A stretch of 57,485 nucleotides of DNA from a virus: positions 79,712 to 137,196 of IMG/VR virus record IMGVR_UViG_3300047476_001238; one strand, written 5' to 3'. The notes under the pieces are model-generated. The model was given only the letters and a program-made list of their open reading frames with translations, searched no databases and was not told where the DNA came from. The stretch's first letter is position 1. Every line of letters starts with the position of its first letter. This document shows, piece by piece, positions 4,371-55,367 of the stretch. The translations under genes were made by a program, and so were the position numbers.

Positions 4371-5372
4371 TTATTTGCTACGGTTTCGAATCATGGCCAA
4401 GATATCCTCGGCTTTCTGACTTGAAGGTTTTGCAGCCGGTGTTTGCACAGGTGCAGTTGCTACTGGTGGCTCGTCATCCTCAAGATCCGGACTCACTGTT
4501 GGCACGAATGGAGCAGCGGGTGCTGCCTTTGCTACAGGAGTAGGTGCTGCGGATTCAGCTGCGTCATCGCTGCTCTTGCCGCCAGTAAAGCCGCTAGGCT
4601 TGAAGTATTGGCTCCAACGATCTGGATCATATGCTTGACCGTCTACGCTTGCTTCAAACATCTCTTTGATCACTTTGAGTTCAACTTCACCTGGACGTTT
4701 TGGTAGGAAGTCGCTCAAGTTGTATAGACCGTGTGAGTCAATTGCTGCTTGCTCTTGTGCAGTTAGAGCAGTCTCTTTGCGGCTCCACTTGCTGGTTGAG
4801 TAGTCTGCATATCCGCCTTTACTAGTCTTTGTGACAGTAAAATCCAGTCCAGCGGTGTAATCAGTAGGCATGCTTTCTAGTTCTGGGTCCATTAGTGCAG
4901 CCTTGATCAAATTAAAAATCTGTGGACTAATAACGAATCTGCGAATAGGATTCTCTGGTGACTTGTCATCCGCTAGAGGATTTTCTCTCACAAAACCTTG
5001 GAACAGATACGATTTCTTCTTCCAGTACTTACGACCCATTTCCTCAAGACCAGGGTCTTTGAACCATGTGCGTACTTCGGCTAGGATGGGGCAAGCGTCG
5101 CCATACATCTCAACACAAGGTACTTGTACAACAACAGGTTTACTATCAGATTGTCCTTTGATTCCTGCAAACGGCAGTCGAATCATTAGTCGCTCAACCC
5201 AGAAGAAGTCGTTCTTGGTATTTGCGTCTGGTAGGAAACGGATTTTTGCACTGGAACCTTCTGGAATGTTCCAGTGTGCGTAGATGGCGTTATCGCCTTG
5301 TGATTGTCCGCCTTGCGAACGAGTTTCTTGCGCTTGTAGTTTTGCGCGGATTTCTGCTAATGAAGTGGCCAT
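4371..5372 (-). CDS. 32: gp32-like single-stranded DNA-binding protein
   Basis: This 333-residue protein matches the T4 gp32 family. It has a basic N-terminal segment (cooperativity region), then an OB-fold core with IRFLPD, PFAGIKG, KKSYLFQGFV and FVISPQIFNLI. A disordered Ala/Pro-rich linker with an acidic DLEDDEPP patch follows. Unlike T4, the extreme C-terminus is basic (MIRNRSK). The T4 zinc site (His plus C-x9-C-x2-C) is eroded: only PC...GDACPIL remains and the last Cys is Leu, so zinc binding is doubtful. The protein coats ssDNA during replication, recombination and repair. An AAGGAG ribosome site precedes the ATG. The roughly 70-nt leader has a strong hairpin and two overlapping promoter-like elements, suggesting autoregulation as in T4. 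Confidence 0.88.
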   Translation of the reverse strand: MATSLAEIRAKLQAQETRSQGGQSQGDNAIYAHWNIPEGSSAKIRFLPDANTKNDFFWVERLMIRLPFAGIKGQSDSKPVVVQVPCVEMYGDACPILAEVRTWFKDPGLEEMGRKYWKKKSYLFQGFVRENPLADDKSPENPIRRFVISPQIFNLIKAALMDPELESMPTDYTAGLDFTVTKTSKGGYADYSTSKWSRKETALTAQEQAAIDSHGLYNLSDFLPKRPGEVELKVIKEMFEASVDGQAYDPDRWSQYFKPSGFTGGKSSDDAAESAAPTPVAKAAPAAPFVPTVSPDLEDDEPPVATAPVQTPAAKPSSQKAEDILAMIRNRSK

Positions 5373-5413
5373 AATGTTTCTCCTTATAAAATGCCATAAT
5401 GTGTGTGCCTAGA

Positions 5414-5440
5414 TATACAACTGCACCGTGCAATTATATA
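5414..5440 (-). promoter_or_regulatory. Leader hairpin/dyad upstream of gp32
   Basis: In the minus-strand RNA a 12-bp stem can form around a 3-nt loop, centred near 5427 on the dyad TGCACCGTGCA. Two positions that mismatch in the DNA palindrome become G-U pairs in the RNA, which points to RNA-level folding. The base of the stem lies about 42 nt upstream of the gp32 ATG. T4 gp32 represses its own mRNA by nucleating on a 5'-terminal pseudoknot at a similar distance. The dyad also overlaps a sigma70-like -10 box. Confidence 0.6.
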
Positions 5441-5462
5441 ACAATACTATTTATGCTGTCAA
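5433..5462 (-). promoter_or_regulatory. Sigma70-type promoter for gp32
   Basis: On the minus strand TTGACA (5462-5457) is followed after 18 nt by TATAAT (5438-5433), an essentially consensus bacterial promoter. Predicted start of transcription is near 5426, inside the dyad. It would permit early expression of gp32 by unmodified host polymerase. Confidence 0.65.
5448..5455 (-). promoter_or_regulatory. Late-promoter-like octamer CATAAATA (gp32)
   Basis: This T4-late-like octamer sits within the spacer of the sigma70-type promoter. With T4 spacing, transcription would start near 5442, just ahead of the leader hairpin. Confidence 0.45.
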
Positions 5463-6037: not shown

Positions 6038-7480
6038 TTAGAATTTTAAGCCAGCTAGACGACGTAAAAAAGACAAATCTTCTGATACTACCGGTTCATC
6101 CATTGTGGTTGCACCAGTGGGCTGCGGCTGCGGTGTAGGCTGTTGTGGAGCCGGCTGTGTATTGGCATTTTGTTGCTGCATTATCTGCATAAACTGGTTA
6201 GCCAATGCGTTTTCTCCATTTGATGCTAACCAACCAATAATGGTTCTTCTAGCATCTGCATCCGGTCCTTGTACCTTACTTAATTTTATCAAGGCTTGAT
6301 TTAAATCTTCGCTATTAAGAAAATTGATATTTGATAGAGCTGCAATAGCGTCAGAAGCGTCAATACCAACTGCAATTGGAGTTTGCATTAGATCGCTTAG
6401 ATCTTGTTCATCTCTGTCATCGGTGTCGTCGGTCCAGGTCTGTTCTGTAATGTCGTTGGCCCAAGACTCAAATTCCACAGTCATTGGGGTGTCCATTTTT
6501 TGTTTATTTTTGTAGGCGCGATACACATAAGGCAATGCCTCGTTGAATCTGTCATCGTAAATTTTCTTAACAAAACGTTCGCGCAATGAATCAACGTCAA
6601 CTTCATCTAGTTCCTGCGATTGACCACACATATTCATTAACAATTCGTGTCCTTTGCGACCTTGTAAACGCTTTAAATTGTTTTTGACTTCGTTGTAGCG
6701 ATGTATAGCAGATTCAACCATGCCACTTGTTTCTGCGTCCTCAAATGTACGATTACGCATTGAACGCACAAAGTGTTTCATGCTGGCCATTTCCTTGACC
6801 ATTTCATTGATTAATGCTGCGCCTTCGTCATCCATGCGTCCTTCGTGGCGTAAATGATTGGCTATAGCTCTAGCGCCATGCAAGTTTGTATGGGGCAATA
6901 AGAATCTTTCTCCTAATGGAGTTTCTACGAACACATGCTCAATCTGACGTCCACGAGCACCGTGGCGTTCTGGATCAATTTGATCCTTGTGTTTAATTAT
7001 TAGCTTGTGTGTTCCAACATCACCGTAGCTGACTCTGCGGTTGTTTCCATGTCCGTACAATTTGCTTTCTGCTATAGCCAGCTCTTCTTTGTCGTATGTG
7101 GCATCAGATACACTTTGCTGTTTGATGTCTTTGAGATCTAAATTGCTACGATTGATATCTCTTACATCAAACGATAACATGTTGCGTCGTGCAAATTCTC
7201 TCAGGCCGCGAAGAAATCTATACCATTCTGTTTCTTGCTCTTCATCTAAAGCATTGGTAATGTTTGATCCAAAATAAACTTTGATGCTGTCTTCGTCAAT
7301 TAAACTGACAGTGACATTACCAAAGTTTTCTCCGCTTTCGCTGATATAATCAAAATTAAAAAAACGGGCTTGTTCGGGATCGGTGACTCGTTGAGCGTTT
7401 TCGTCACCAATATTGACGTGGTCAAAACGGGCACGTATTTTATCAAATAAAGCAGCTGAAATTTTGTTTAGTTCTCGCAT
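6038..7480 (-). CDS. Conserved-looking phage protein of unknown function with C-terminal RRLAGL motif
   Basis: This 480-residue, mostly hydrophilic protein is not recognised. The N-terminal half looks globular (alternating strands such as FGNVTVSLIDEDSIKVYFG, then KLIIKHK and GERFLLPHTNLHG). The middle is helical and charged. Near the C-terminus lies a Gln/Pro-rich stretch followed by SFLRRLAGLKF at the very end. That terminal motif resembles the C-terminus of the gp22 scaffold and segments in several internal-protein candidates in this window, which suggests a link to the prohead core. It is the first gene after large terminase, starting 17 nt after its stop. A GATAAATA late-promoter-like octamer lies 8 nt upstream of the ATG. 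Confidence 0.7.
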   Translation of the reverse strand: MRELNKISAALFDKIRARFDHVNIGDENAQRVTDPEQARFFNFDYISESGENFGNVTVSLIDEDSIKVYFGSNITNALDEEQETEWYRFLRGLREFARRNMLSFDVRDINRSNLDLKDIKQQSVSDATYDKEELAIAESKLYGHGNNRRVSYGDVGTHKLIIKHKDQIDPERHGARGRQIEHVFVETPLGERFLLPHTNLHGARAIANHLRHEGRMDDEGAALINEMVKEMASMKHFVRSMRNRTFEDAETSGMVESAIHRYNEVKNNLKRLQGRKGHELLMNMCGQSQELDEVDVDSLRERFVKKIYDDRFNEALPYVYRAYKNKQKMDTPMTVEFESWANDITEQTWTDDTDDRDEQDLSDLMQTPIAVGIDASDAIAALSNINFLNSEDLNQALIKLSKVQGPDADARRTIIGWLASNGENALANQFMQIMQQQNANTQPAPQQPTPQPQPTGATTMDEPVVSEDLSFLRRLAGLKF

Positions 7481-23568: not shown

Positions 23569-26500
23569 TTATACGCCTGCTGCTATGTCACCTGGATTCT
23601 TTAATCTAATTGGAATAAAGATAAACTCAACATCCTTCATTGGTTCGATCGCAATGTCTACATACAATTCATTACGAGCAATACGTGTAGGTGTGTTGTT
23701 GGTGTCATCACAAACAACTAGATAATCGTAAATACCGCGTTTAGCTACAAGATCATTAATTGCACCTGAGATAATATTCTTGATCTGGTCGCGAGTAATT
23801 TTATCATTAGGTTCAAACAAGAATCCGTTGCCAACATTGGCCAGTATTGTACGGATGTAGTTAACTAGACGTGCAACATTGATACGATCAAGACTGCTTG
23901 CAGTTGGGTTGCGAGTCTTTTGACCCCAAACAACTAGGCCAACACCTGGTAAGTTAGTGATTGGATTGATCTTGTTTTCGTATAATGTGTCACGTAAACC
24001 AGTACGAATACTGTTGAATTCAAATTCGCCTGTGGTAGCATTGATATAACCAATGCTGCTTGCATTGTCAACTAGTCCACGACGTGTACCAGCTGGTGCA
24101 AACCATTGATATGCAACGTTATCGTTAAAAATCATTGTGCGTAATGCCATATGACTTGCAGGAACAACAATGTCATTGCCTTGTAAGTCGCTGCTTCTAC
24201 CGCAAGGATAGTAAACGCCCAAGTAAGGATCAGCAGTTGCTAGACCGTCTCCGTTGGTATTATTGCTCCAGTTTGCAATGTCAATTGCATTAGGTGCCAG
24301 TCTCATTGGAGTGTCGCCAATGATAAATGCAGTGTTTGCACGATCATTGTTTAATGCTACCATTTCATCAATTAGTTCTGGATAACCTGGAGCACAAATA
24401 ATATTAAATGCATACTGTTCTTCTCTTACTTCTGTGTTTGCAATAATTGCTGCTTGCATAGCCGCTGTGACCATGCGACGCTGTGCTTGGCGACCCATAT
24501 AAGGACTGCCGTTATCCTTCAATCCGCTAGCTGTTTGCCATGTATCTTTGACAGCCGGTAAAGAACTGCCTGCACCTGGAACAGCTGGTAGATCAGGATA
24601 AGCGTTTGCATTGAACTTGTTGCTAACAAATTGTTTTACATTATAACCGCTACGACGGGTGTTGAATAACAACATACCACGTGGATATAGTCTGTAGTCT
24701 GGTGCATCCTGATCTAGATAATCACTTTCTAGTAGATCAGTAATTGCAGGCAATGAACCTGTAATAATGTCAGTGGTGCCGTCAGTGTCCCAACGTGCAT
24801 CAGCAAACACAATACCGTTTTGGCTTACTTGATCAGTGTTGTCAATCAAGATCCATGTATTGTTGTCGTCGTATCTGTATAGTGCAGGATAGTTTTCCAA
24901 GTCGCCGGTATCTAGCCATAGATCACCTGGAACTAAAGAAGTCACGCCGTCGCTTTGTTTTGTTGGCTCGCTTGCGCTAATAATAACACCGTTTGTGTCT
25001 GTAGCTGACAAATCATATCCTCGTGCATCAGTGGTGCTACCATCATAGTATGAACTATGATATGCTCTCCATCCACCAATTTCGTTGATCATGATGTCAA
25101 CTGATGCTGGATCACTGTAGTACCATAAAGTACCTTCTGCAGGTGCTCGGTATGGCTCAGTGGTGCTGTAAGTCAATACAAACGACGAAGTGTTTGGAAT
25201 TTCCCAGTTGGTCAATGCCAATGTGCTGCCGTATTGTAAAATACCAGTACTGCCGTCTACTGTGGTTGCACTAAATCCTGCATCCGAAGTTGGTGTACCC
25301 ACACTGTCTGTCAAATAAATGTCACCACCGTAAATGTGTGTAAATGTGATTACACCGCTGGTACTAACAGAGATATTAAGTTCAGGAATATTTAAAGCCA
25401 ACACATCACTAACAAACGATGCACGTGATGTACCAGTTAGAACTACAGTATATTCAATGATATTAGCTGATCCAATTTCAGTGACACCAATTACCAATTC
25501 GTCACTTGCTGTAAATGGGTTTGCGCCAACAGCGGTACCACCAATTACAGTTTGCCCGCTGGTGCGTCTACGGAATACTTTGTATCCACCTGTATCAGTA
25601 CGTAATGGATCGTATGCTACCCATAAGGTGCCTGCTGCGATACCATTTCCGCCGCCACTAGAATCTAATCCATAAATTGCATCTTCTGCACGATTGTAGA
25701 ATGGTGCTGCCAAAGTTGCCCAGGTATCGGTGCTGGAACTGTATCGTTTGACAACAATATCTGCACCGCTACCAGTTGCGCCAACTTTTGCAAACACGCT
25801 ACCGCTTGGACGAGGAACTGTGTCTGTGCTTCTCCAGCTTGGCATGGCTGCAAAATCACCGTATGTTAAAATAGGATTAGCATATGTACCAGCTGTAATT
25901 CCTAACAGTGTTAATGGAGCACCTGACAAGTTAGACGAAATAGCAATTTTACCATCAGCAGTTGAACCGTTGCTTTGTGCCAAGTTGCTTGCATATAGAT
26001 ATATTTTTCCGTTTACATTGGCTGCTGTGACACCAGTAATTGCTGCTGTATTAATTGCATTAACAATGTAATCTAGACTTCTTGTGACCGAAGTGTTCTG
26101 TAAATCAACAGTTTCAGTGTTGATAGTAATTGTATAAGAAGTTCCGTTTACAGGAGCTAATGGATTAGATGCTGTACCTTTGATTGCTGGCCAAGCAGTT
26201 TGCCATGCAGTGGTTCCCAATCTTACCCAAGTGTTGTAGTTTGCATTGTCTGTACGTAAATTATTACCTGCTTTGTAGAATAGGTTAGCATTTGTGCCTG
26301 TCCATGCTACAGCGTACTGACCAATTTGACCAATGCTGGTTTTTGGAACGTAAATACCACCGGATAAAGTAGCGTCAGTTGCATTGTCGGTGATTAGTAA
26401 TGGAGTCTTTAAACTGAACACATTGTTTACTGCGTCCCATTCATTGATGCCCCAAGTTGACTCTGCTAGATCCATCCAATGAGTTCCGTTTTCAACAGCA

Positions 26501-26880
26501 CCTGTTGGACGTACACTAGTACCTTCTAGTGCATTAAGATCTACGTCTGCACGGATAGCATAAATTCTGTTCACGTTGCCTAGTGCGCTATAAGCTGCCA
26601 TTAAGCCATATTCGTTTCGCTCATCTCCATGCAAAGGAGTGCCTGCTGCGCTTTGCTTGAAGCTAGGATATCCCATTGCGCTAATAAGTTCGCGCTGGCT
26701 ACTAAATGCCAATAGTCTACCTGCTCTAGCAGCGGTAGTATCAGACGCTAGGGCACCTGATGGATTTGTTTTATTTTGTGCAGTGGCCATTACAATTAAT
26801 GGAACAGTGCCAACTGCGCCTGGTACGTATTGACTTTCGTCGGTTACGCTAATTTCTAAACCTGGAGATACTAGTGCCAT
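23569..26880 (-). CDS. 18: Tail sheath protein (gp18-like), unusually long
   Basis: This 1103-residue protein has contractile sheath hallmarks at both ends. The N-terminus has LVSPGLEISVTDESQYVPG and VPLIVMATAQNK. The C-terminus has DNVAYQWFAPAGTRRGLVDN, YENKINPITNLPGVGLVVWGQKT, SSLDRINVARLVNYI, ANVGNGFLFEPND and an EFIFIPIRLK-type ending. T4 gp18 has 659 residues; the extra length is in the middle (about 140-720), with repeated WYYSDP-, GDLWLDT- and WILID-type beta modules that look like surface-exposed insertions. The ATG at 26880 is chosen over 26898 because AAAGGA precedes it. TATAAATA lies 30 nt upstream. The sheath contracts to drive the tube into the host. Confidence 0.92.
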   Translation of the reverse strand: MALVSPGLEISVTDESQYVPGAVGTVPLIVMATAQNKTNPSGALASDTTAARAGRLLAFSSQRELISAMGYPSFKQSAAGTPLHGDERNEYGLMAAYSALGNVNRIYAIRADVDLNALEGTSVRPTGAVENGTHWMDLAESTWGINEWDAVNNVFSLKTPLLITDNATDATLSGGIYVPKTSIGQIGQYAVAWTGTNANLFYKAGNNLRTDNANYNTWVRLGTTAWQTAWPAIKGTASNPLAPVNGTSYTITINTETVDLQNTSVTRSLDYIVNAINTAAITGVTAANVNGKIYLYASNLAQSNGSTADGKIAISSNLSGAPLTLLGITAGTYANPILTYGDFAAMPSWRSTDTVPRPSGSVFAKVGATGSGADIVVKRYSSSTDTWATLAAPFYNRAEDAIYGLDSSGGGNGIAAGTLWVAYDPLRTDTGGYKVFRRRTSGQTVIGGTAVGANPFTASDELVIGVTEIGSANIIEYTVVLTGTSRASFVSDVLALNIPELNISVSTSGVITFTHIYGGDIYLTDSVGTPTSDAGFSATTVDGSTGILQYGSTLALTNWEIPNTSSFVLTYSTTEPYRAPAEGTLWYYSDPASVDIMINEIGGWRAYHSSYYDGSTTDARGYDLSATDTNGVIISASEPTKQSDGVTSLVPGDLWLDTGDLENYPALYRYDDNNTWILIDNTDQVSQNGIVFADARWDTDGTTDIITGSLPAITDLLESDYLDQDAPDYRLYPRGMLLFNTRRSGYNVKQFVSNKFNANAYPDLPAVPGAGSSLPAVKDTWQTASGLKDNGSPYMGRQAQRRMVTAAMQAAIIANTEVREEQYAFNIICAPGYPELIDEMVALNNDRANTAFIIGDTPMRLAPNAIDIANWSNNTNGDGLATADPYLGVYYPCGRSSDLQGNDIVVPASHMALRTMIFNDNVAYQWFAPAGTRRGLVDNASSIGYINATTGEFEFNSIRTGLRDTLYENKINPITNLPGVGLVVWGQKTRNPTASSLDRINVARLVNYIRTILANVGNGFLFEPNDKITRDQIKNIISGAINDLVAKRGIYDYLVVCDDTNNTPTRIARNELYVDIAIEPMKDVEFIFIPIRLKNPGDIAAGV

Positions 26881-26909
26881 GTTTTTATCCTTTAACAAAC
26901 ATTTTGTAG

Positions 26910-26917
26910 TATTTATA
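26910..26917 (-). promoter_or_regulatory. Late promoter TATAAATA (gp18)
   Basis: This is an exact match to the T4 late promoter octamer, 30 nt upstream of the sheath ATG, with an AAAGGAT ribosome site between. It is divergent from another TATAAATA at 26967. Confidence 0.65.
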
Positions 26918-26966: not shown

Positions 26967-26974
26967 TATAAATA
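26967..26974 (+). promoter_or_regulatory. Late promoter TATAAATA (plus strand, HNH-like gene)
   Basis: Exact T4-type octamer only 5 nt upstream of the ATG at 26980. T4 spacing would start the transcript at the ATG itself. No ribosome site is visible. Confidence 0.5.
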
Positions 26975-26979
26975 TCTGT

Positions 26980-27324
26980 ATGAATAGACCTTTATGTACC
27001 ATATGTCATGGCAATCCTGTTGCAATCAATTACCATTCTGAGGGAAAAGTACGTTATAGGAAACTGTGTTCCAGTTGTGCTCGCAAAGGAAAACGCACTC
27101 GTGCTTTACCCGGGTGGATTAAAGCAGGCTACAAGAAGAAAACTGTGTGTGATAAATGTGGCTTTAAAGCCAAATCAATCAATCAAATATTCGTGTTCCA
27201 CATTGATGGTAATTTAAAGAACAACGATTGGAGCAATCTTAAATCAGTGTGTGCAAACTGTAGGATTGAGATACACAATACTAAGACGACCTGGCGCGAG
27301 AGTCCGTTAGTAGCAGATTATTAA
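26980..27324 (+). CDS. HNH-like protein with two zinc-ribbon Cys clusters
   Basis: This 114-residue basic protein has C6xxC9 and C30xxC33 pairs, then C57xxC60 with a downstream HIDGN motif (H74, D76), a WSNL segment and C91xxC94. The second half is the HNH/His-Me-finger pattern (H-x-D-G-N...N...CxNC). The first half is a separate zinc-ribbon-like module. It is therefore probably a small DNA-binding nuclease. It lies antiparallel to gp18 and gp1, between them, and its 3' end overlaps the gp1 3' end by 44 nt. This is an insertion-like context typical of free-standing homing endonucleases. Confidence 0.75.
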   Translation: MNRPLCTICHGNPVAINYHSEGKVRYRKLCSSCARKGKRTRALPGWIKAGYKKKTVCDKCGFKAKSINQIFVFHIDGNLKNNDWSNLKSVCANCRIEIHNTKTTWRESPLVADY

Positions 27325-30553: not shown

Positions 30554-30835
30554 CTATTCTTGGGGTTTTTCGTCAAGTAATGTTGCAAACATGAGCCAAG
30601 ATTGCAATTCTTGCAACTCTTGTTGCACTTTTAGCAACTGTTCGTCATACTTAGTACTACGCCCAAAACGGCGCCTATCAACGTCCAACTTGCTGAGTTT
30701 TGTAATACTTTGTAATAAGTTTTTATACATTCGTTCAAGCTGCCGCTTGTGCTGCAAATTATACAATGCCCACATTGAACGCTTGATTTGCGCTTCAATT
30801 TGTTGCCAGTCGTGCAGGGATTGAAATTCGCTCAT
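30554..30835 (-). CDS. Small coiled-coil protein (93 aa) with consensus promoter
   Basis: Almost entirely helical and rich in Gln, Leu, Lys and Arg (LHDWQQIEAQIKRSMWALYNLQHKR, QLLKVQQELQELQSWLM), it should form a coiled coil. Not recognised. An opposite-strand frame of equal length is Cys/Ser-rich and judged an antisense shadow. The gene has a perfect sigma70 consensus promoter immediately upstream, with the predicted start at or 1 nt before the ATG, so the mRNA could be leaderless. Its early-type promoter sets it apart from its late structural neighbours. Confidence 0.6.
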   Translation of the reverse strand: MSEFQSLHDWQQIEAQIKRSMWALYNLQHKRQLERMYKNLLQSITKLSKLDVDRRRFGRSTKYDEQLLKVQQELQELQSWLMFATLLDEKPQE

Positions 30836-30842
30836 ATTGCAT

Positions 30843-30871
30843 ATTATATGCTATACCCTAATTTATGTCAA
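30843..30871 (-). promoter_or_regulatory. Perfect sigma70 promoter TTGACA-N17-TATAAT
   Basis: On the minus strand TTGACA (30871-30866) and TATAAT (30848-30843) are separated by exactly 17 nt. Predicted start is 30836, one base before the ATG of the 93-residue gene. Confidence 0.75.
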
Positions 30872-53543: not shown

Positions 53544-54035
53544 TTAATGACATTCTACGTTAGCAAAAGTGCTTGTAGCTACATTGTCGCTTGTGCGCCA
53601 ACGATATCTGTTGTTGCTAAAATCCCAAACATATTTGTTAGAAATTCTCTTAACATAGAAACGAACATTACTGGTATTGTATCCTGTGACTGTCATTGCG
53701 GCTGCTCCGGATGCTGGGGCTGCATTTGCTGCATCTGCTCCAGCAGTTAAAGTAGCTACGGTGACGCTTGCATTGCTGTGAGTGGCATCTTCAATTGAGC
53801 CAACTGCGTTTGCTACCAAGAATTGTCTTGCACCTTTTTGTGCAACAATATATGCATTGCCGTGATATATGCTTGCATCTGTATTAAATTGAACTTTAAC
53901 AGTTTTTACACCTTGTACAGTGATCCACTGTGGGCGACCGCCAGTACCACCAATTGAGCTAATTGTTGTGCTTACTTCTTGATCAACTAGTGTACCATCA
54001 CTTCTTTCATGACTGATTTTTAAACCACGTGCCAT
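53544..54035 (-). CDS. Abundant small virion protein downstream of gp23, possible capsid decoration
   Basis: This 163-residue beta-rich protein has LKISHERSDGTLVDQEVSTT, GVKTVKVQFNTDASIYHGNA, YIVAQKGARQFLVANAVG, an Ala-rich central segment, and NVRFYVKRISNKYVWDFSNN and RYRWRTSDN. It has no recognised family. The gene is isolated: an AATAAATA octamer and a structured 65-nt leader upstream, and strong terminators on both sides. Being a monocistronic, well-insulated gene directly after the major capsid gene fits an abundant virion protein such as a head decoration protein. That role is inference. AAGGAGA precedes the ATG. Confidence 0.65.
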   Translation of the reverse strand: MARGLKISHERSDGTLVDQEVSTTISSIGGTGGRPQWITVQGVKTVKVQFNTDASIYHGNAYIVAQKGARQFLVANAVGSIEDATHSNASVTVATLTAGADAANAAPASGAAAMTVTGYNTSNVRFYVKRISNKYVWDFSNNRYRWRTSDNVATSTFANVECH

Positions 54036-54061
54036 TTTGTTTTCTCCTTAAATTGGCGTTC

Positions 54062-54100
54062 TAGGCCTACGCGGTTGGCTCCGCATAAGTTCTCGAGAAC
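54062..54100 (-). promoter_or_regulatory. Structured 5' leader of three short palindromes/hairpins
   Basis: The leader of the gene at 54035 contains GTTCTCGAGAAC (54089-54100), GCGG-TTGGCT-CCGC (54071-54084) and TAGGCCTA (54062-54069) back to back. The first would sit at the extreme 5' end of RNA from the AATAAATA octamer. It may stabilise the mRNA. Confidence 0.5.
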
Positions 54101-54105
54101 ATGTA

Positions 54106-54113
54106 TATTTATT
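54106..54113 (-). promoter_or_regulatory. Late-promoter-like octamer AATAAATA
   Basis: T4 spacing predicts a start near 54100, giving a 65-nt leader for the 163-residue protein. It lies just downstream of the gp23 terminator. Confidence 0.45.
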
Positions 54114-54170: not shown

Positions 54171-55367
54171 TTACTGGAACGATAGGTTCGAAACAGCAAT
54201 CTCACCTAGGTAGTCGGCAGCATTACCAAACGATGATGCTGTGTTTGTTAACTCGATATAACCATAACGAGTCATAAAGCCAACTACTGGCTCAAATGTT
54301 GCTGGATCTAGAACAACGCCAGAGCTCATTAGAGGGATATATGGGCAGTAGAACGCGGCTGCATCAGCCTCGCTTGAACCCTTATAACCAACTAGAACTG
54401 CTTGGCTATCGCTAGCATAGCTGTCAACGTAGATACGCATTGCGCCGTTTAGTGTACCAACAAACTTGGTGTTGGTAGGAGCTTCAAAGGTACCTTCAGT
54501 TGTACGTGCAAATGCCGAAGTTGTTGCGCTCTGTAGTACAGTTAGAGCTGCTGGACTTACAACTGCCCAGTTACCAGCGCCACGACGTGTACGTGAAGCG
54601 ATTAGGTTTGCTGTGCGGTTGATTAGAACAGCTAATGCAGCGTGTTCGTCACCAACGAAAGTAGCAGTACCACTTACAGCAGCTTGGTCGAATGTGAATT
54701 CGGTTGCTGCTAGACTACGTAGAGAACCTAAGATTTCTTGGTCGATCTCAACGGTGATCTCTTGTGCAAGAGCAGCCATGATTTCTGCTTCGATGTCAAG
54801 ACCATGCATGGCTTGTGCATCTTGAGCAGCTTCGAAAGTCCAGCGTGCGCTTAACTTACGAGTCTTGGCTTCAACTACTTGCTTTAAGATCTGAACGTTG
54901 ATACGATTACCAGTCACACCTTCAAGTGCGCTAGTAGCCGCTGCACGACCAGTAGTAGCAGTACCACCATTGGTTAAACCAGAGTATGCAACTGCAATCT
55001 TAAATGGACTTAATGCTTCGTCACCAGCAGTAGTACCAGTAGCGTATGGGCTAGCAGTATCTGTGGTAGTGTCAGCATAACGAACACGTAGAGTGTGAAT
55101 TTGTGCTACAGGGCCAGTCATCGGCTGAACACCAACGATTTCGTTAGCAATAACGGTTGGCATAACACGACGAATAACTGGTAGAATAACACGGTTTAGA
55201 GTTGCAACGTTTGATGCAGCAGTAGCGCCAGCAGTTGCAGTTTCCATTAGGTGCTTGCGGGTGTTTTCAAGAATAACGCCCATTGTGGTTCTTTTCGAAC
55301 CGTTTAAGCCTTCTAGCAGAGCGTCTTTTGTTTCGCCCCAACGGCTTTCTAATAGTGCTTGTGACAT
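54171..55367 (-). CDS. 23: Major capsid protein (gp23-like)
   Basis: This 398-residue protein has the HK97-fold major capsid pattern of T4 gp23: LNRVILPVIRRVMPTVIANE followed by IVGVQPMTGPVAQI, KTRKLSARWTFEAAQDAQAM, HGLDIEAEIMAALAQEITVE, ASRTRRGAGNWAVVSP, and a C-terminal VVGFMTRYGYIELTNT. It is shorter than T4 gp23 (521 residues). An N-terminal propeptide is expected; HLME|TATAG (after E42) fits gp21 cleavage and lies at the right distance from the conserved core. It follows gp22 and gp21 as in T4. AGGAG lies about 20 nt and AAGGAAAA immediately before the ATG; CCTAAATA lies 17 nt upstream. Confidence 0.95.
   Translation of the reverse strand: MSQALLESRWGETKDALLEGLNGSKRTTMGVILENTRKHLMETATAGATAASNVATLNRVILPVIRRVMPTVIANEIVGVQPMTGPVAQIHTLRVRYADTTTDTASPYATGTTAGDEALSPFKIAVAYSGLTNGGTATTGRAAATSALEGVTGNRINVQILKQVVEAKTRKLSARWTFEAAQDAQAMHGLDIEAEIMAALAQEITVEIDQEILGSLRSLAATEFTFDQAAVSGTATFVGDEHAALAVLINRTANLIASRTRRGAGNWAVVSPAALTVLQSATTSAFARTTEGTFEAPTNTKFVGTLNGAMRIYVDSYASDSQAVLVGYKGSSEADAAAFYCPYIPLMSSGVVLDPATFEPVVGFMTRYGYIELTNTASSFGNAADYLGEIAVSNLSFQ

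Follow-up and report, generated by a model that had tools for sequence, protein, structure and literature searches.

The leader of gene 32 in the virus studied here is best read as a promoter-selected RNA control region, in which the late but not the early mRNA would be under strong autogenous control; we give this reading a probability of roughly 0.4. A sigma70-type early promoter, a T4-type late promoter octamer and an RNA hairpin are superimposed in this leader, an arrangement that, judged by comparison with the leaders of relatives, is far beyond chance and suggests that gp32 synthesis is controlled according to which promoter is used. The window, i.e., the whole stretch of DNA analyzed (57,485 nt), corresponds to positions 79712-137196 of the partial virus record G000 (137,196 bases), and no named phage with DNA near-identical to it was found. 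Phages with this leader form a large family that is uncultured and related to T4. The gene downstream of the leader had been taken for gp32, and this was borne out: its product (4371-5372) matched phrog_1192 (E 2.8e-69) as well as phrog_224, and a profile from 21 relatives matched the T4 and RB69 gp32 structures at E values of 1.6e-5 to 5e-4. The features concerned, from the -35 box to the gene, are the following:

5457-5462, minus strand: -35 box TTGACA of the predicted sigma70-type early promoter, from the sequence and from a TTGNNN that has the same spacing to the octamer in the majority of the 87 distinct relatives.
5448-5455, minus strand: T4-type late promoter octamer CATAAATA within the sigma70 spacer, in a similar place in the 87 distinct relatives.
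5442, minus strand: predicted late +1, placed by the T4 rule six nt beyond the octamer end, where the hairpins of relatives begin.
5412-5442, minus strand: 5'-terminal hairpin of the predicted late transcript, supported by folding, covariation, compensatory double changes, G-U/A-C asymmetry and a model search.
5433-5438, minus strand: -10 box TATAAT of the early promoter, within the 5' arm of the hairpin, from the sequence and relatives.
5426, minus strand: predicted early start in the hairpin loop or 3' arm, placed 7 nt beyond the -10 box.
5405-5426, minus strand: hairpin that early transcripts might form instead (GUGC 5426-5423 with GCAC 5408-5405; AG 5422-5421 with CU 5412-5411).
5405-5410, minus strand: AGGCAC, first copy of the AGGCA repeat that is enriched in gp32 leaders.
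5391-5396, minus strand: TGGCAT, the second GGCA copy, degenerate and lying ahead of the Shine-Dalgarno sequence, from GGCA enrichment and positional clustering.
5380-5385, minus strand: Shine-Dalgarno sequence of gp32, AAGGAG, from the sequence.
4371-5372, minus strand: coding sequence of gp32, the single-strand DNA-binding protein (333 aa).

The leader sequence, on the minus strand, is TTGACA-GCATAAATAGTATTGTTA-TATAAT followed by TGCACGGTGCAGTTGTATATCTAGGCACACACATTATGGCATTTTATAAGGAGAAACATTATG. The spacer of 18 nt falls inside the 15-19 nt allowed for a sigma70 promoter (16-18 nt in most relatives), and exact TTGACA-N15-19-TATAAT pairs were found twice in the window against 0.16 expected. The sole other exact pair, TTGACA-N17-TATAAT at 30843-30871 (minus strand), was located just upstream of an ORF at 30554-30835 on the same strand. 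The octamer CATAAATA alone occurred at chance frequency in the window (4 found, 4.07 expected), and all six [TC]ATAAATA sites in it lay shortly upstream of genes, the placement of TATAAATA-like octamers that marks T4-type late promoters. The preliminary description had TTGACA-N18-TATAAT reading toward gp32 with the octamer in its spacer, and each of these elements was present in its place. Genes for a gp55-type late sigma factor were present in the records of relatives (G046, of the class with the promoter overlay, and also RaK2, PA5oct and Phosso), and none was found in the partial 137-kb record G000. Elsewhere in the window, two TATAAATA octamers stood back to back as divergent late promoters (26910-26917, minus strand; 26967-26974, plus strand) between genes at 23569-26898 (minus strand) and 26980-27324 (plus strand).

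In the RNA, the hairpin stem (5440-5414) comprised 12 pairs with a CGG loop and an extra closing pair, G5442-C5412, and started 2 nt past the predicted late +1. U5436-G5418 and U5433-G5421 were U-G pairs in the RNA and mismatches in the DNA, and 41 nt lay between the hairpin and the ATG (5372). This agrees with the earlier account of a 12-bp dyad over the -10 box, ending 42 nt before the ATG, whose two DNA mismatches become G-U pairs in the sense RNA. The late start about 2 nt before the hairpin and the early start inside it, also proposed there, correspond to the predicted positions 5442 and 5426, and the hairpins of relatives begin at the predicted late +1. Stability was high in a 39-nt context (z -3.2; 1/200 shuffles as good), the fold of the full leader was no better than shuffles, and about 20 perfect 11-bp hairpins occurred in the window. 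Because the octamer is at chance frequency, the full leader unremarkable and 11-bp hairpins common, the single sequence is only weakly suggestive of the overlay. The plus-strand fold was set aside as irrelevant to a minus-strand leader. When G000 was searched with a model of the element, exactly one site was found at E 0.01 or better, which was the gp32 leader.

In four scans that used gp32 proteins as queries, viral contigs yielded several hundred relatives and 149 distinct leaders. An octamer was located 60-105 nt before the ATG in 92/149, of which 87 were distinct over the hairpin region; these 87 had the octamer-hairpin layout in common and nearly all carried the promoter overlay. In this class the -35 box usually began 6-8 nt ahead of the octamer, spacers were 16-18 nt, and the commonest -10 boxes were TATACT, TACACT and TATAAT. 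When segments were cut at the predicted late +1, the first helix began at +1 in 74/87 leaders and at +2 in 10/87 (mean z -2.6); the cut exaggerates the precision of the start somewhat, as the helix began between 0 and +3 in 62/87 when upstream sequence was allowed to pair. Both promoter types are thus positionally conserved in relatives.

Other leaders were built differently. In a second geometry (44 leaders), the octamer was 5' of the -35 box, and the late transcript would begin with a hairpin of ~58 nt whose 5' arm takes in the entire sigma70 promoter; the helix started at +1 in 35/44 (mean z -5.1). Only 5/149 leaders (L036, L051 group) had the sigma70 promoter outside the hairpin, upstream of the octamer, and early RNA would therefore keep the hairpin in these phages. 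The geometry changed ~18 times on the gp32 tree, a rough count because of rooting and leader recombination. Jumbo phages found by protein had diverged leaders without the same overlay. In Cronobacter phage GAP32, Xanthomonas phage XbC2 and Serratia phage BF (L267, L269, L270), a hairpin whose 3' arm contains TATAAT was seen at a predicted late +1, ~200 nt ahead of gp32, and closer to the gene there was again a similar TGTGGTATAAT site. No Rfam family reached its cut-off in the leaders of 20 relatives.

The base pairs themselves were conserved in the manner of an RNA. Among the 27 leaders most like that of the window, pairs 5, 7, 8, 9, 11, 12 and 13 took two to five standard pair types. In 16 ungapped rows, 97.1% of cells paired, and the covariation score was 0.416; shuffles gave 0.169 (0/500), and sliding gave no more than 0.077. 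On the gp32 protein tree, 26 two-sided changes kept a pair and 12 changes broke or restored one. Covariation in homologous leaders, whose absence the preliminary description had named as grounds for abandoning the idea, was therefore found, with 26 compensatory double changes. Non-Watson-Crick cells in distinct arms, which were picked by Watson-Crick symmetry only, were sense G-U in 44 cases and A-C in 9 (p about 1e-6), against about 53:47 (53% G-U) predicted by base composition. Such asymmetry is expected of an RNA hairpin only, indicating that the hairpin works as sense RNA and disfavoring a DNA-palindrome operator.

Of all features, AGGCA was the most specific to gp32 leaders, although the window leader has it in a weaker form. 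Counted over the 70 nt next to the ATG, gp32 leaders averaged 1.77 AGGCA, compared with 0.10 for 340 other leaders that have a Shine-Dalgarno sequence and come from the same contigs; for GGCA the values were 1.99 and 0.36. Leaders of the window's class averaged 1.66 GGCA, and the window leader had only two copies. The repeat overlapped the Shine-Dalgarno sequence in 13/13 leaders with a pseudoknot (see below), in 18/44 of the second geometry and in only 1/87 of the window's class. GGCA was absent from all five leaders whose promoter lies outside the hairpin. Judged by the number of matches, a multi-gene AGGCA regulon was rejected, as AGGCA..AGGCA gave 8 matches in G000 and 5 in the reversed control. 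Many gp32 leaders (e.g., L007, L009, L010, L068) had a second small hairpin of the AAGACCAUCUU / GAGACAAUCUC or AUCUAA...UUAGAU type between AGGCA copies or near the Shine-Dalgarno sequence, which seems to covary.

The element had also been likened to the 5'-terminal pseudoknot of T4 gene 32, and here the preliminary description was not supported for the window: the best pseudoknot score of its leader was 16.9, matched by 50% of shuffles, compared with 24.9 for T4. Neither in the window nor in leader classes A and C was a T4-like pseudoknot any better than in shuffles. A T4-like H-type pseudoknot did occur in 13 relatives (L066, L166, L172, L173, L174, L180, L189, L198, L220, L226, L230 and others), which are far relatives of T4. 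It had a stem 1 of ACACAG/CUGUGU, a third loop of 7-8 nt that often contains AUAAU, and a variable stem 2 (ACAGUC/GACUGU, CCUAG/CUAGG, ACAAG/CUUGU, CAGUG/CACUG), with a covariation score of 0.381 versus 0.109 in shuffles (0/500; seven aligned rows). No good -35 box was seen by eye for a TATAAT at this third loop. Some of these leaders also have an upstream hairpin module, so that the pseudoknot is an addition and not a replacement.

Taken as a control region, the leader would act as follows. Early in infection, host sigma70 polymerase would start in the apical loop (about 5426) and produce transcripts without the 5' arm; the hairpin would be confined to late transcripts, given a -10 box within the 5' arm and an early start past it. 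Late in infection, a gp55-type polymerase would use the embedded octamer and start at 5442, so that the transcript would carry the 12-bp hairpin at its 5' end, followed by AGGCA-type repeats toward the ribosome-binding site. The hairpin would most likely nucleate gp32, the presumed binding protein, and the AGGCA array would be its gp32-specific operator; from this we infer repression of the late message and a difference in control between early and late mRNA. The T4 precedent makes autogenous control the leading reading. Several findings count against it: four other long late leaders, of other genes in the same phage, start with hairpins; the window leader has no T4-type pseudoknot or UUAAA and just the two GGCA copies; the five leaders with the promoter upstream of the hairpin have no GGCA; and early transcripts may have a 5' hairpin of their own.

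Chance superposition of AT-rich motifs would account for CATAAATA at its expected frequency in the window and for the common 11-bp hairpins, but it is refuted by positional conservation and covariation across the 87 distinct leaders and can practically be dismissed. A device at the level of DNA, in which the interleaving of sigma70 and gp55 sites lets only one polymerase bind at a time and a DNA-binding repressor recognizes the dyad, is very improbable. The octamer does lie between or beside the sigma70 boxes in nearly all leaders, from which it follows that binding by the two polymerases must be mutually exclusive; however, arm sequences vary freely while RNA pairs are kept, unlike in a DNA operator, and the excess of G-U over A-C cells speaks against it as well. 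The strongest rival to autogenous control, and one that deserves serious if tentative consideration, is that the hairpin is a general 5'-end stabilizer of late messages, blocking 5'-end-dependent decay through RNase E or pyrophosphohydrolase, with AGGCA doing a separate job and gp32 being one of several highly expressed genes with such a hairpin. The start of the helix coincides almost exactly with the predicted late +1, and in G000 there are four further long late leaders with a hairpin at or next to +1 (record positions 6360, 30213, 30761 and 133817, minus strand, the last being window position 54106), whereas short ones mostly do not; the hairpin may accordingly stabilize 5' ends. In addition, early transcripts may also form a 5'-terminal helix, and of all T4 mRNAs that of gene 32 is the most stable (PMC3014915). 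Stabilization alone nevertheless leaves over the gp32-specific AGGCA array and the embedding of the early promoter in two geometries. The two functions can hold together.

The predicted sigma70 start falls on RUGC in the leaders, and early transcripts may, according to the folding analysis, form an alternative 5' hairpin. In early leaders a helix began at +1 or +2 in 102/132, compared with about 37 in shuffles (mean z -1.3), often by pairing RUGC with the first GGCAY, and the closing pair fitted 63/80 leaders versus 55.6 ± 2.0 in shuffles. On the tree, however, RUGC and GGCAY changed together only twice and independently many times, which makes the early hairpin a tentative lead. It would be part of a bistable RNA switch set by promoter choice, in which the -10 arm pairs with the 3' arm in late messages, and RUGC with the first GGCAY in early ones, hiding the first AGGCA, so that early and late messages expose different operators. 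The position of RUGC, the helix and closing-pair counts and the lack of AGGCA in leaders with the promoter outside the hairpin are in line with this switch, yet the scarcity of coupled changes, the 4-bp core and the prospect that RUGC and GGCA are kept for other reasons make it unlikely. More broadly, it is doubtful that mutually exclusive early and late hairpins expose or hide an AGGCA operator, with promoter choice switching autogenous control, in at least two geometries of a very large phage group.

In T4, the 5' pseudoknot of gene 32 mRNA nucleates cooperative binding of gp32, which extends through the repeats and covers the ribosome-binding site (PMC535899, PMC3014915). The gene 32 operators of T4, RB69 and T2 resemble the window leader in belonging to the same gene and in having, in this order, a structured 5' element, short repeats and a ribosome-binding site (PMC535899, PMC3014915). 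The T4 element lies 67 nt before the ATG, and that of the window about 42-70 nt. The T4 operator consists of a pseudoknot and UUAAA repeats, whereas the window leader has a simple hairpin and AGGCA, with no UUAAA repeats, and, unlike the T4 operator, is tied to the late start and has the early promoter embedded. Since the pseudoknot and UUAAA features fail, it was not filed as a T4-type operator member; by analogy of gene, position and plan, it may work like one. RB49 has no conserved pseudoknot (PMC3014915), indicating that the T4 operator is not universal.

Promoter-dependent RNA structure, as proposed for the window, is found in the leaders of T4 gene e, soc, 49 and I-TevI. In gene e and I-TevI, the late promoter lies in the DNA for one hairpin strand, and promoter choice decides whether the hairpin forms (PMC3014915). 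The sense is reversed: there the early RNA has an inhibitory hairpin that the late RNA loses, while in the window the late RNA would have the hairpin and the early RNA would lose it. The Shine-Dalgarno sequence of the window leader, in contrast to these T4 leaders, is outside the stem. No described precedent for the arrangement was found in the literature searched, whose coverage is incomplete, so its novelty is provisional.

The Rfam family freshwater-2 (RF02980) is similar in being a hairpin leader that begins at a predicted late +1, but has no AGGCA and precedes a different gene; the gp32 leader scored 20.1 bits against its cut-off of 49.9 and is not a member. One true copy (52.4 bits) was present elsewhere in this phage, at 54033-54099 on the minus strand, as the leader of an ORF at 53544-54035. 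Its first nucleotide is the predicted late +1 (AATAAATA plus 5 nt); it is one of the hairpin-start late leaders of G000 and adjoins the major head gene (54171-55367, phrog_138). Matches of 38-58 bits in G002, G008, G010 and G012 were all leaders, 3/4 of them near the major head gene, and the downstream protein differed in three. The motif is listed as cis-regulatory, and freshwater-2 looks like a phage late-gene leader.

Stabilizing stem-loops at the 5' end of bacterial mRNAs, e.g., that of Escherichia coli ompA, likewise have a helix flush with the 5' end; the window stem differs in also encoding a promoter, and its stabilizing role is putative. Autoregulation by gp32, a textbook example, is known from T4 and a small number of its close relatives. 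The large comparative set adds a gp32 leader element that covaries in distant relatives, a second set of leaders with a T4-like pseudoknot and a gp32-specific repeat. Because an early promoter lies inside a late RNA hairpin and stays there when the geometry changes, promoter-dependent RNA structure can be tested directly.
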